From Persephonella sp. (GTDB lineage Bacteria; Aquificota; Aquificia; Aquificales; Hydrogenothermaceae): a stretch of DNA of 46,268 nucleotides. The stretch covers positions 1 through 46,268 of the forward strand of contig JALSNI010000030.1 of assembly GCA_026987075.1 (NCBI GenBank), in the 5' to 3' direction. The position numbers were made by a program, and so were the translations under genes. Below, piece by piece: positions 20,840 through 34,038 of this stretch. The notes beneath the pieces are model-generated. The model was not told the origin of the DNA and ran no database searches. It was given only the letters and a program-made list of their open reading frames with translations. Each line of letters opens with the position of its first letter. Within the stretch, counting starts at the first letter, position 1.

Positions 20840-22861
20840 ATGGAGCTATTAAAAAAAGTAGAAGACACAATACCAGAAATTTTTGAACAGATTAAAGAAA
20901 ACATACTATCAGAAGCTTCAATCTTTAAACTGCCCTTAAGTGAGGAAGACCTTGAAAGAACAATAAAAAATCAAGAAAGTTTGATAACAGACCTTTTAAA
21001 AGGCTACCCAGAGTTTCCAAAAAAAATCATAGAAAGAATAGAAAATTTTTACGGGAAAACAGACATTCCATACATAGTTTTAGAGGCAAATATAAATCTA
21101 TTTAAGGTAAAGACACTTGAATATTTGAATCAAGAAGGATTAGATAACGAAAGTATACACTCTATTAAAAAATTTTTAGACAAATTTCACAACTATGTTG
21201 CAAAAACATTCCTGAAAAAAGAGGTAAGCAACCTATCATCAGTTCAAGAACTTTCTATGGAAAAATATCTTTTATACAAGGCTCACGTAGAGTTTATCAG
21301 AAGTATTATATCTTCAATCCAGACAGAAAATTTATCAAGCTTTCCTATAGAAAGCCATAAAGAAACAAAATTTTATAAATACTTACATTATCCTGAATCT
21401 TTAATGGTATGTATGAACTCCAATCTGTGTTCATACATAATGGATTTATACATTAGCAGTAACAGGCTATCTCTATCCTTATATTCTGCTCTTTCGTCAG
21501 AAGACTACATAGAAGCCTACAGAATTTTTCAGATAATGTCTGATGACATTATGAAGTTATCAAAACTCCTTGCTGAGCTGTATTTTATAACCTTTACTGA
21601 TGCTGAAACAATGTTTTTTAAGCTTATTGAAAAGTCAGAACTGATAAAAAAGAGGAAGTATGTATTTTTGATAGACATAAAAAACATGAAAAATCTGAAC
21701 AGGTTATATACTACGAAAAGAGTAAATGAGCTTCTTAACATAATACACCAAGAGCTGTTAAATTTAATTTTTTCTAAAAAAGACAAATTTCTTTTAATCA
21801 GAGGCATTACAGCTAACTTTTACATGCTTGCCGTTGATGTAAGTCCTGAAGAGGTATCCAAGATAACCTATGAAATCAAGAAAAAGATAGAAAAATCGTA
21901 TAAGCTAAATGGAAGTTATGTGGACATCAACGTCACTATAACTGCCCTTGACATAGGAGAATACTTAGACCTACCAAAAGAAGACATGTTAAAAATGCTT
22001 CTTCACCTCAAGGAAATAGCTAAGAAAAAAAATGACGGAATCTACCTTGTAACAGATGACGAGGAAAAGAAAACCCTTAGAAACTGGATGGAGGAAAAGT
22101 ATAAAAAAGTTGAGTTTGTCAGAACTAAAATAGATAAAGAGGAAATTGAAGTAGTTTTCCAACCTATATGTGACCTTCAAACTCAGGAAATTAAGGCTGT
22201 TGAAACCCTTGCCAGAATAAAAGAAAATAACAAACTTATACCTGCCGGTGTTTTTATTGATATATTATACGAGCTTAATCTCATAACTCGCCTTGACGAA
22301 ATTGTTCTCAGAAAAATAACAGAAAAGAAAGACATTCTGAAAAAAGTTTCTAAATCTATATTTATAAATCTCAGCACAGAATCTCTTATGGATAAGATTT
22401 TTATAGAAAAGTTAAGAGATTTTGTATCAAAAATGAGAGAGTTTAATGTAGTTATAGAGTTAACAGAGCAGCGGTTACTTACTGATTACAAATACATACA
22501 CCTGATAGAAAAAGAGTTTGAACATTTTAGTATAGCCATTGACGATTTTGGAACAGGATATTCATCTTTAAAACTTGTGTCAGATTTTGCTCAAAAAGGT
22601 GTATTAAAAGTGCTAAAAATTGACGGTTCTTTAATCAAAGAGGTAGATACAAAAAAATATGCTAAAAGAGTGCTCAAAGTTATAGCATCTATGTCTAAAA
22701 GCTTAGAAATAACTTCCGTAGCAGAGTTTGTTGAAAATGAAAACATATACGAGGAGATAAAACATTTAGAGATAGATTTAGGCCAGGGTTACTACTTTTC
22801 TGAACCAAAAAGGGCAGAAGAGATTGTAGAAGTGTTAGAGAAAAGCTCCTTATTTTCCTAA
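20840..22861 (+). CDS. EAL-domain c-di-GMP phosphodiesterase with degenerate globin-, CZB- and GGDEF-like domains
   Basis: 673 residues, no membrane segment. Residues about 1-130 align without gaps to the globin-like domain of the cyclase at 32743-34038, but Tyr71 replaces the proximal His. Residues about 145-245 resemble its CZB domain: His149 matches one ligand, while Phe178, Tyr204 and Asn208 stand where Cys, His and His are expected. The GGDEF domain (about 270-430) is degenerate, with RGITANFYML at the active loop. The EAL domain (about 437-673) is complete: FQP...ETLAR, FINLS, IELTE, DDFGTGYSS, LKIDGS, VAEFVE and LGQGYYFSEP. It should linearise c-di-GMP. The sensing role of the lost-ligand domains is unknown. 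Confidence 0.88.
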   Translation: MELLKKVEDTIPEIFEQIKENILSEASIFKLPLSEEDLERTIKNQESLITDLLKGYPEFPKKIIERIENFYGKTDIPYIVLEANINLFKVKTLEYLNQEGLDNESIHSIKKFLDKFHNYVAKTFLKKEVSNLSSVQELSMEKYLLYKAHVEFIRSIISSIQTENLSSFPIESHKETKFYKYLHYPESLMVCMNSNLCSYIMDLYISSNRLSLSLYSALSSEDYIEAYRIFQIMSDDIMKLSKLLAELYFITFTDAETMFFKLIEKSELIKKRKYVFLIDIKNMKNLNRLYTTKRVNELLNIIHQELLNLIFSKKDKFLLIRGITANFYMLAVDVSPEEVSKITYEIKKKIEKSYKLNGSYVDINVTITALDIGEYLDLPKEDMLKMLLHLKEIAKKKNDGIYLVTDDEEKKTLRNWMEEKYKKVEFVRTKIDKEEIEVVFQPICDLQTQEIKAVETLARIKENNKLIPAGVFIDILYELNLITRLDEIVLRKITEKKDILKKVSKSIFINLSTESLMDKIFIEKLRDFVSKMREFNVVIELTEQRLLTDYKYIHLIEKEFEHFSIAIDDFGTGYSSLKLVSDFAQKGVLKVLKIDGSLIKEVDTKKYAKRVLKVIASMSKSLEITSVAEFVENENIYEEIKHLEIDLGQGYYFSEPKRAEEIVEVLEKSSLFS

Positions 22862-31701: not shown

Positions 31702-32742
31702 ATGAAGGATATAAAAAACGACCTTTTCCTGAGAGCCTGCTGGAGAGAGCCTGTAGAAAGAACACCAATATGGCTTATGAGACAGGCAGGCAGGTATATG
31801 CCTGAATATAGAGCACTGCGGGAAAAGGCAGGAGGATTTGTAACATTTTACAAAAATGTTGATTTATCTGTGGAAGCTACTATTCTGCCTAAAAAAATTC
31901 TGGGTATTGATGCTTCCATCATATTCTCAGATATTCTCACTCCCCTTGAATCTATAGGTATGAAGTTTGAGTTTAGGGAGGGAGAAGGTCCTGTATTTTT
32001 CAATCCTGTTGAAAAACCTGATGACATTCTAAAGCTGAAACCTTTTAAAAAGGAAGATGTGTATTATGTAGGGGAGATTATAAAGGGAGTAAACAGAGCG
32101 TTAAACAGAGAGATACCTACAATAGGTTTTTGCGGCGCACCTTTTACACTTGCAGCTTACATGATAGAAGGTAGAACATCAAGAGATTTCAAAAAGGCAA
32201 AAACATTTATGTATAACCATCCAGATGCTTTTAAAGAACTTTTAGATAAACTGGCAGATATGCTTATTGATTACCTTAACTTTCAGATAGAGTCTGGAGC
32301 TGATGCTGTCCAGATTTTTGACAGCTGGGGCGGTTATCTGTCTCCTGACGATTACAGGGAGTTTGCACTTCCTCCTGTTAAAAAAATCATCAAAGGTTTA
32401 AAGAGGGACTATCAGCCTGTTATACATTTTACAAAGGGAGTTGCAGGATTTTTTGACGATATGATTACCTCCGGAGCTGACGTTTATGGTGTAGACTGGA
32501 TGATTGATATTGGAGAGGTTAAGAAAAAGCTAAATGGAAAAGCAGCTGCACAGGGAAATCTTGACCCGATTGTCCTGTATGCAGAAAAAGAAGTTATAAA
32601 GGAAAAGGCAGTCCAGATACTGAAAAAATGGGGAAAGGATACAGGGCATATATTCAATTTAGGACATGGTCTGATGCCAGATATGGAAGTTGAAAAGGTC
32701 AAATATCTTGTGGATGTTGTAAAGAAGGAAAGCATAAGATGA
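31702..32742 (+). CDS. hemE: Uroporphyrinogen decarboxylase
   Basis: 346 residues, full length. Signature PIWLMRQAGRYMPEY at the N-terminus with the catalytic Arg, then IIFSDILTPLESIG with the conserved Asp, GFCGAPFTLAAYMIEG, and IFDSWGGYLSPDDY. It removes four acetate carboxyls from uroporphyrinogen III on the way to heme, fitting the cytochrome genes next to it. Monocistronic; its stop abuts that of the convergent GGDEF gene. Confidence 0.97.
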   Translation: MKDIKNDLFLRACWREPVERTPIWLMRQAGRYMPEYRALREKAGGFVTFYKNVDLSVEATILPKKILGIDASIIFSDILTPLESIGMKFEFREGEGPVFFNPVEKPDDILKLKPFKKEDVYYVGEIIKGVNRALNREIPTIGFCGAPFTLAAYMIEGRTSRDFKKAKTFMYNHPDAFKELLDKLADMLIDYLNFQIESGADAVQIFDSWGGYLSPDDYREFALPPVKKIIKGLKRDYQPVIHFTKGVAGFFDDMITSGADVYGVDWMIDIGEVKKKLNGKAAAQGNLDPIVLYAEKEVIKEKAVQILKKWGKDTGHIFNLGHGLMPDMEVEKVKYLVDVVKKESIR

Positions 32743-34038
32743 CTAAACCTTCAGTTCCTCCACTATAACCCTGTTTTTTCCTTCCTTTTTTGCTTCATAC
32801 ATAAGATTGTCAGCTTTATCTATAAGCTCGTTAAGGGGAATATATCTCCTGCTTTTTAATACAATGCCACCTATACTGACAGTTACTGATATTTCTTTGC
32901 TATCAACCCTGATTTTTGTCTGCTGTATTTCTTTTCTTATTTTCTCTAACAGATGGTAGAAGGCTTTTTTTGTTGTTCCATTAACAATTATGACAAATTC
33001 TTCTCCACCGTATCTGAACAGGTAATCTGACTTCCGTAAACTTTTTTTCATTATCTGAGCTAAATTTTTCAAAACCACATCTCCAGCATTATGTCCATAT
33101 TTATCATTGATAGATTTGAAATTGTCTATATCAACAAATGCTATTCCAAACTTTTGACCTGTTAAAATTGATAACTCCATAACTTTTGGATAAATTTCGT
33201 TCAAGACGCTACGAGTTAATAGTTTTGTAAGGTTATCCTTTTCTAACTCGTGTATTTTTTCAGAAAATAAAAAAGTTAAGAGAGAAGAGAGGAAAAGTAA
33301 ATTGTTCTTTACAAAAGAGCTGTATTCATTTACAAGAAGGTTATACTTTTCATTTTCTTTAAGAAATATTATTGTATGGGCAGTGATATGTATTTCCCTG
33401 TGTAATTTTTTTAATTTCTGGATTTGAGTGGAGTTAACATTTTTCTTACTTATTGCTGAAAACCACTGTCCTATTTCGCATTTAGTCTCTTCAATATTAA
33501 CATCTATGTTTTTTTTATTTTCTGCTATAAAATCTAATATATCTTCCTCCCAGTGAATATGCTTATCTATTATCTCCTCTATTTGTATTGCTTTTTCCTG
33601 TAATAAAATCTCTATAAATTCTCTTGTAGAGGCTTTTTCCCTGCTCACTAAATTCTTCAGGTAGCCTAAAGCAGTATAATCTTTTAGTAGTTCAAAAAAT
33701 TTTGTGTTGTAAAAAAATACCTCTTCTACATTTCCTGTTCTATACTTAAAAAGTTCTTTAACTGTCAGGATTTCCAGTCTGTTTATCGTTTCTAAAAATA
33801 CTGGATAATCTATTCCTAAATTTTCGTGAAATTTTCCAAGTTTAATAAGCTGTGATTTTAAAGCATTTAAATTATCTGAGGTAAACAGATAGTAAAGATT
33901 AAGAATTCCTTCTATCTGCCTGCTTTTTATCTCTTCAGTATCTTTGTTTTTGAAAAAAGGCTTAAATAAAGGATCTTCAGTCAGGTTATTAAAAAATTCG
34001 TCATATATGTTGTTTAAAACTGTTTTGAATAGTTCCAT
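32743..34038 (-). CDS. Globin-CZB-GGDEF diguanylate cyclase
   Basis: 431 residues, cytoplasmic. Residues about 1-130 look like a globin-coupled sensor domain: LGKFHENLGIDYPVF places His71 as the proximal heme ligand. Residues about 155-255 match a CZB zinc-sensor domain: His160 (HIHW), Cys187 (CEIGQW), His213 and His217, with spacings of 27, 26 and 4. GGDEF domain: DIDNFKSIND with metal-binding Asp, GGEEF at 344-348, and an inhibitory I-site RKSD (335-338) five residues before it. It should make c-di-GMP under control of heme ligands and zinc. DosC and DgcZ of E. coli are the nearest concepts. Last gene of a seven-gene operon. Confidence 0.9.
   Translation of the reverse strand: MELFKTVLNNIYDEFFNNLTEDPLFKPFFKNKDTEEIKSRQIEGILNLYYLFTSDNLNALKSQLIKLGKFHENLGIDYPVFLETINRLEILTVKELFKYRTGNVEEVFFYNTKFFELLKDYTALGYLKNLVSREKASTREFIEILLQEKAIQIEEIIDKHIHWEEDILDFIAENKKNIDVNIEETKCEIGQWFSAISKKNVNSTQIQKLKKLHREIHITAHTIIFLKENEKYNLLVNEYSSFVKNNLLFLSSLLTFLFSEKIHELEKDNLTKLLTRSVLNEIYPKVMELSILTGQKFGIAFVDIDNFKSINDKYGHNAGDVVLKNLAQIMKKSLRKSDYLFRYGGEEFVIIVNGTTKKAFYHLLEKIRKEIQQTKIRVDSKEISVTVSIGGIVLKSRRYIPLNELIDKADNLMYEAKKEGKNRVIVEELKV

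Follow-up and report, generated by a model that had tools for sequence, protein, structure and literature searches.

A predicted Persephonella c-di-GMP phosphodiesterase with a globin-like domain lacking the proximal histidine and a CZB-derived bundle carrying an invariant cysteine pair

We analyzed a 46,268-nucleotide stretch of Persephonella DNA (hereafter, the window), which encodes a predicted c-di-GMP phosphodiesterase and, on the opposite strand, a homologous cyclase (Table 1). When the phosphodiesterase was searched on its own against Pfam, EAL scored above the cut-off (160.8 bits versus a curated value of 31.3) and GGDEF below, with neither a CZB nor a globin match; a match to BapA_N (0.0049–0.018) was judged to be chance. 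A preliminary description of this DNA had called the EAL site complete, and all eight residues checked are indeed present (E455, N510, E540, D568, D569, K593, E629 and Q649), as are the catalytic residues in nearly all family rows that cover the site. It had also reported the loss of the GGDEF active loop, and alignment to the cyclase agrees, with ITANF standing in place of GGEEF. Judged from its sequence, the protein is a soluble, cytosolic EAL phosphodiesterase with a dead GGDEF domain, predicted to hydrolyze c-di-GMP.

Table 1 Features of the phosphodiesterase and cyclase genes within the window. L002 denotes a paralogue encoded in the window's own genome.
Feature	Position	Strand	Length	Basis
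c-di-GMP phosphodiesterase gene (predicted)	20840–22861	+	673 aa	ORF, Pfam EAL 4.7e-47, family of 47
Globin-like domain without proximal His, residues 1–136	20840–21247	+		hhalign, AF2, Foldseek
Tyr71, proximal (F8) His position	21050–21052	+		Family alignment
CZB-derived four-helix bundle, residues 137–255	21248–21604	+		hhalign E 3.1e-9 vs cyclase CZB
His149, sole CZB ligand retained	21284–21286	+		Alignment
Thr176, zinc Cys position	21365–21367	+		Cys in 39/47 members
Phe178, conserved in family; no lost ligand	21371–21373	+		F in 25/26 rows
Cys191, invariant	21410–21412	+		47/47 family, 5/5 L002 clade
Cys197, invariant in family	21428–21430	+		47/47 family, 4/5 L002 clade
Tyr204, third CZB ligand position	21449–21451	+		His in 44/47 members
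Asn208, fourth CZB ligand position	21461–21463	+		His in 39/47 members
Pseudo-GGDEF domain, residues 256–418	21605–22093	+		Pfam GGDEF 18.1 bits, below cut-off
Degenerate GGDEF loop RGITANF, residues 321–327	21800–21820	+		Alignment to cyclase RYGGEEF
EAL phosphodiesterase domain, residues 428–656	22121–22807	+		Pfam and catalytic residues
Homologous cyclase: globin, CZB, GGDEF with intact GGEEF loop	32743–34038	−		Pfam, alignments, AF2, Foldseek
Cyclase His71	33826–33828	−		Alignment

BLASTP returned no match between the phosphodiesterase and the cyclase, so pairwise comparison could not have revealed their homology. At the profile level, the globin parts of the phosphodiesterase family and of the cyclases aligned with an hhalign E-value of 1.2e-5 (score 37.4, as compared to at most 18.9 for 20 column-shuffled controls and 12.5 for a reversed one) and the CZB parts with 3.1e-9 (score 54.4; shuffled controls at most 15.1). 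A deliberately mismatched pair, globin against CZB, gave no match. Taken as a whole, the front ends of the family and of nine cyclases aligned over 236 columns with a profile probability of 97.4%. The globin-CZB architecture that had been proposed for both proteins is borne out by these comparisons: residues 1–136 and 137–255 of the phosphodiesterase are, on sequence-profile grounds, homologous to the globin and CZB domains of the cyclase.

The cyclase itself is readily recognized by Pfam as a CZB (1.4e-8) and GGDEF (8.2e-42) protein and carries the CZB ligands H160, C187, H213 and H217. Its N-terminus yields a weak Protoglobin score (0.021), the best among nine related cyclases being 3.5e-5. 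Foldseek matched a confident AF2 model of its front end (pLDDT 89.1) to the BpeGReg and DosC sensor globins at a probability of 1.00 and a target TM score of 0.69–0.70, at E-values that were not small. A paralogue in the same genome, L002 (G000:C26:26710-28662; 659 aa), bridges the two proteins, matching the phosphodiesterase over 8–663 (233.7 bits) and the cyclase over 2–425 (E 1.5e-8). L002 retains His71 and all four zinc ligands, and scores above the Pfam cut-offs for Protoglobin (2.8e-6), CZB (2e-7), GGDEF and EAL. A profile combining the cyclases with the relatives of L002 matched the CZB structure of DgcZ (6.3e-5) as well as globins and DosC.

Within the globin-like domain, alignment places Tyr71 opposite His71 of the cyclase, gapless around this position and flanked by residues common to both proteins (F70, I76, Y78, V80, I85 and N86), exactly as first described. 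The position is covered by 44 of the 47 family rows and absent from three; it is occupied by Tyr in 35 members, by Phe in six and by Ile, Val or Thr in one each, and His occurs in none. Since no member with His71 was found across Aquificota and Campylobacterota, the loss is older than the family's spread and has remained stable. Compared with heme-based globin-coupled sensors, the protein has globin homology, evident from the family profile, and lacks the proximal His.

The globin part of the family aligned to that of the L002 clade with an hhalign E-value of 8.2e-12. Searches of the PDB with the front end of the phosphodiesterase (phmmer) or with the family profile alone yielded chance matches, helical ones in the latter case; a profile to which the L002 clade had been added ranked DosC at the top, but with a sub-significant E-value of 0.13, and in this alignment Tyr71 again stands opposite the DosC His. 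A confident AF2 model of residues 1–255 (pLDDT 86.9) was matched by Foldseek to the heme-less globin pXO2-61 (probability 0.98, target TM score 0.71), to phycobiliproteins including allophycocyanin (up to 0.97) and to the stressosome protein RsbR (0.84). With E-values above 1, these three matches are supportive only. Not one match of the model had an E-value below 0.1, and long helical proteins dominated the E-value ranking, globins being singled out only by the probability and TM columns. Given the weakness of the Foldseek matches, the globin fold of the protein rests mainly on profile homology.

In the CZB-derived bundle, His149 aligns with the first CZB ligand, and Tyr204 and Asn208 replace two histidines, in line with the preliminary description. 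The latter had, however, assigned the zinc cysteine position to Phe178, which proved to be wrong: Thr176 occupies that position, and 25 of 26 relatives share Phe178, Cys being found at 176 in most of the relatives. The full 3His/1Cys set is present in 38 of the 47 family members, with residue 149 being His in 41. The nine incomplete sets include those of the protein encoded at 20840–22861 (H149, T176, Y204, N208), of five relatives from the genus Persephonella (N, S, H, F), of L048 and L049 (H, S, E, F; from another family of the class, one of them named Desulfurobacteriaceae) and of one Campylobacterales member (I, C, H, H). By profile, the window's protein is thus a CZB homologue that lacks 3His/1Cys, and CZB Pfam matches do occur among its relatives (best 1.5e-8).

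On a tree built from the pseudo-GGDEF and EAL parts, which leaves out the zinc-ligand and Cys191 columns, positions 149, 176 and 208 require two changes each and Cys191 requires none. Zinc ligands were lost sporadically and late in the family, the window's protein included. As most relatives keep these ligands, zinc is probably still in use across the family at large. The Cys191/Cys197 pair is absent from the cyclases.

Close relatives of the phosphodiesterase are found in about twenty Aquificota genomes. A motif scan of 84,980 species genomes returned 14 loci of the family, in records named Hydrogenothermaceae, Persephonella, Aquificaceae, Aquificota, Desulfurobacteriaceae and Campylobacterales (including a Sulfurovum)—a lower bound, since the scan relies on a single peptide pattern. 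In the order of that Sulfurovum, 24 of 299 sampled genomes encode the family. The GGDEF loop is less degenerate (type GGDYY or GDFY) in family members from this order (L137–L141), most of which carry Phe71; they may resemble the ancestral state. No conserved gene neighbourhood emerged, the flanking genes of the relatives in genomes G083 and G082 differing from those in the window.

Mean pairwise identity within the family amounts to 32.0% for the globin, 45.2% for the CZB-derived, 32.8% for the pseudo-GGDEF and 45.5% for the EAL domain. For the CZB-derived domain, identity to the other members is 37.4% for the window's protein and 34.9% for L049, which are thus somewhat more divergent here than L035, L036, L040 and L030 (45–51%). 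That the CZB-derived domain is as conserved as the EAL domain speaks against a decaying remnant.

A tree of front ends resolved three separate groups, namely the phosphodiesterase family (100/100), the cyclases (98/89) and the L002 group (93/88), with a further branch (84/81) separating the family and the L002 group from the cyclases. Constraining the family and the window's cyclase together was 62.7 log units worse and was rejected (p-AU 2.7e-5); the two proteins are not the sisters they had been taken for, L002 being nearer. In the closely related genome G081 (99% complete), the cyclase sits at its syntenic place and an aldo/keto reductase is found at the place of the phosphodiesterase. Conversely, in those Aquificaceae, Desulfurobacteriaceae and Campylobacterales that were searched for the cyclase front end, matches were weak or confined to CZB. 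Because each gene occurs without the other, an obligate phosphodiesterase-cyclase pair is unlikely, and the suggested hetero-association is unsupported. Were a partner to be sought, L002 would be the better candidate, as it has kept His71 and all four zinc ligands.

The genome encodes a second globin-CZB cyclase, L010 (G000:C5:14927-16117), in whose clade residue 71 is Leu or Phe (alignment by hhalign, E 1.8e-6), an assignment that derives from a single profile comparison and is less certain than the corresponding one for the phosphodiesterase. Zinc ligands are mostly retained in this clade, and L078 has Ser for Cys. The four such enzymes of the genome comprise a cyclase and a phosphodiesterase with His71 and one of each without. 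With both output types existing in either state, the heme ligand appears to have been lost two or more times, once per output type.

Comparison with G081 further revealed local differences around the window. The cyclase shares 56% protein and about 61% DNA identity with its counterpart there (L110:5296-6579), and the neighbours on either side share 94–100% protein identity, suggesting allelic replacement or unusually fast divergence of the cyclase, bounded by the gene ends. A 940-aa repeat-protein ORF adjoins the G081 cyclase. Between 17229 and 25052, protein identity to the syntenic G081 locus (L114) drops to 72–91%, with an aldo/keto reductase and an ABC transporter in place of the phosphodiesterase and the next gene. 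The gene at 31702–32742 of the window, which from its sequence we take to be hemE (uroporphyrinogen decarboxylase), directly adjoins the globin cyclase gene, which is probably a coincidence. A GGDEF-EAL gene at G000:C66:22312-23612 (L003 and L022) is broken by stop codons and is a possible pseudogene.

The reading we favour, with slightly better than even confidence, is that of a phosphodiesterase that works as a homodimer and combines a globin module devoid of heme with a CZB-derived bundle whose constant element is the cysteine pair rather than zinc. Its front end would derive from the globin of a globin-coupled sensor with a CZB bundle behind it, a state retained by L002. By the time the family spread, the globin would already have been without its proximal His; it would now be a heme-less helical module, and the bundle would have been kept under strong constraint, with a fixed Cys-x5-Cys motif (Cys191, Cys197) and dispensable zinc ligands. 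The enzyme presumably acts as a homodimer that reads its input in the bundle, most likely via the chemistry of the two cysteines (candidates being a disulfide, oxidation, or a metal bound outside the 3His/1Cys site), and the long helices and the pseudo-GGDEF domain may relay this input to the EAL dimer, setting c-di-GMP hydrolysis. More tentatively, Cys191 and Cys197 might constitute a new thiol input site that controls c-di-GMP hydrolysis without heme or zinc, zinc being an optional second input in four-ligand relatives; invariant cysteines can also be structural. The front end is more plausibly a re-purposed sensor than a decayed twin of the neighbouring cyclase. The earlier notion of one working and one decayed set of sensors is at odds with the old loss of His71 and with a bundle conserved like the EAL domain; the zinc ligands alone were lost late.

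That the cyclase and the phosphodiesterase form a sister pair, the latter having decayed to a scaffold or dimer module and associating with the former, was suggested by their common front end and by the location of both genes within one 46-kb window. With the sister placement rejected, either gene found without the other, and the two lying about 10 kb apart on opposite strands, we consider this highly improbable; the strong conservation of the bundle and the intact EAL site argue that the phosphodiesterase is more than a scaffold. It is also very unlikely that Tyr71 ligates ferric heme, leaving the globin a heme sensor with an altered redox state: Tyr does occupy the F8 position in 35 of 44 family members, but heme ligation of the Tyr kind is not to be expected from Phe (six members) or from Ile, Val or Thr (one each), conservation of the domain is low (32%), and its structural neighbours include pXO2-61 and RsbR, both globins without heme.

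These same neighbours bear on a role of the globin-like domain in sensing a small hydrophobic molecule in the empty heme pocket, with the bundle as a transmitter only, which we regard as unlikely. Such sensing has been proposed for heme-less globin sensor domains, pXO2-61 and phycobiliproteins are the top globin-type Foldseek matches, and RsbR of the Bacillus type (PMC4976288) and MabR (PMC11617747) are established cases of globins without heme. Yet a pocket for a fixed ligand should be more constrained, and the globin is among the least conserved parts of the protein. Finally, the window's protein might bind zinc through an altered set, for example His149, His173 or His183, Cys191 and Cys197, given that His149 is kept, that His173 and His183 are nearby and that the cysteines are invariant. 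The Persephonella relatives with N, S, H and F lack these histidines, so such a site would not be general, and we deem it rather unlikely. The cysteine-centred, heme-less homodimer remains our preferred reading.

It is the zinc site that defines CZB domains, and a family with dispensable zinc ligands and a fixed cysteine pair makes it testable whether the bundle senses through zinc. The natural set of four enzymes, moreover, lets the contributions of heme and zinc to c-di-GMP control be separated in thermophilic vent bacteria. To our knowledge, no heme-less globin of the RsbR, pXO2-61 or MabR type is combined with a CZB bundle and an EAL domain. In the open-access literature, which does not comprise all journals, we found no paper on the globin-CZB-EAL combination or on the Cys-x5-Cys motif. 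CZB domains are known to sense zinc and hypochlorite through 3His/1Cys, EAL-CZB proteins form a recognized subgroup, and globins are on record as CZB partner domains (PMC8262984).

Among characterized systems, DcpG of Paenibacillus dendritiformis likewise couples a globin sensor to GGDEF and EAL domains (PMC10882959). DcpG is heme-regulated with both enzymes active, whereas the phosphodiesterase described here has lost the proximal His, has a dead GGDEF domain and contains a CZB-derived middle. RsbR, pXO2-61 and MabR similarly use a heme-free globin fold as a sensor or assembly module, and MabR also joins a heme-less globin to a GGDEF-like domain (PMC11617747), but their outputs differ. DosC (YddV/DgcO) and BpeGReg, the closest matches of the cyclase globin, share the order of globin, helical middle domain and GGDEF, and differ in that the middle domain is not CZB, the output is a cyclase and heme is bound. 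In DgcZ (YdeH) and other CZB-regulated enzymes, a CZB bundle likewise precedes a c-di-GMP output, and the window's cyclase and most family members keep 3His/1Cys as DgcZ does; in contrast to DgcZ, the family has an additional globin and the invariant Cys-x5-Cys, and the protein encoded at 20840–22861 lacks three of the four ligands.
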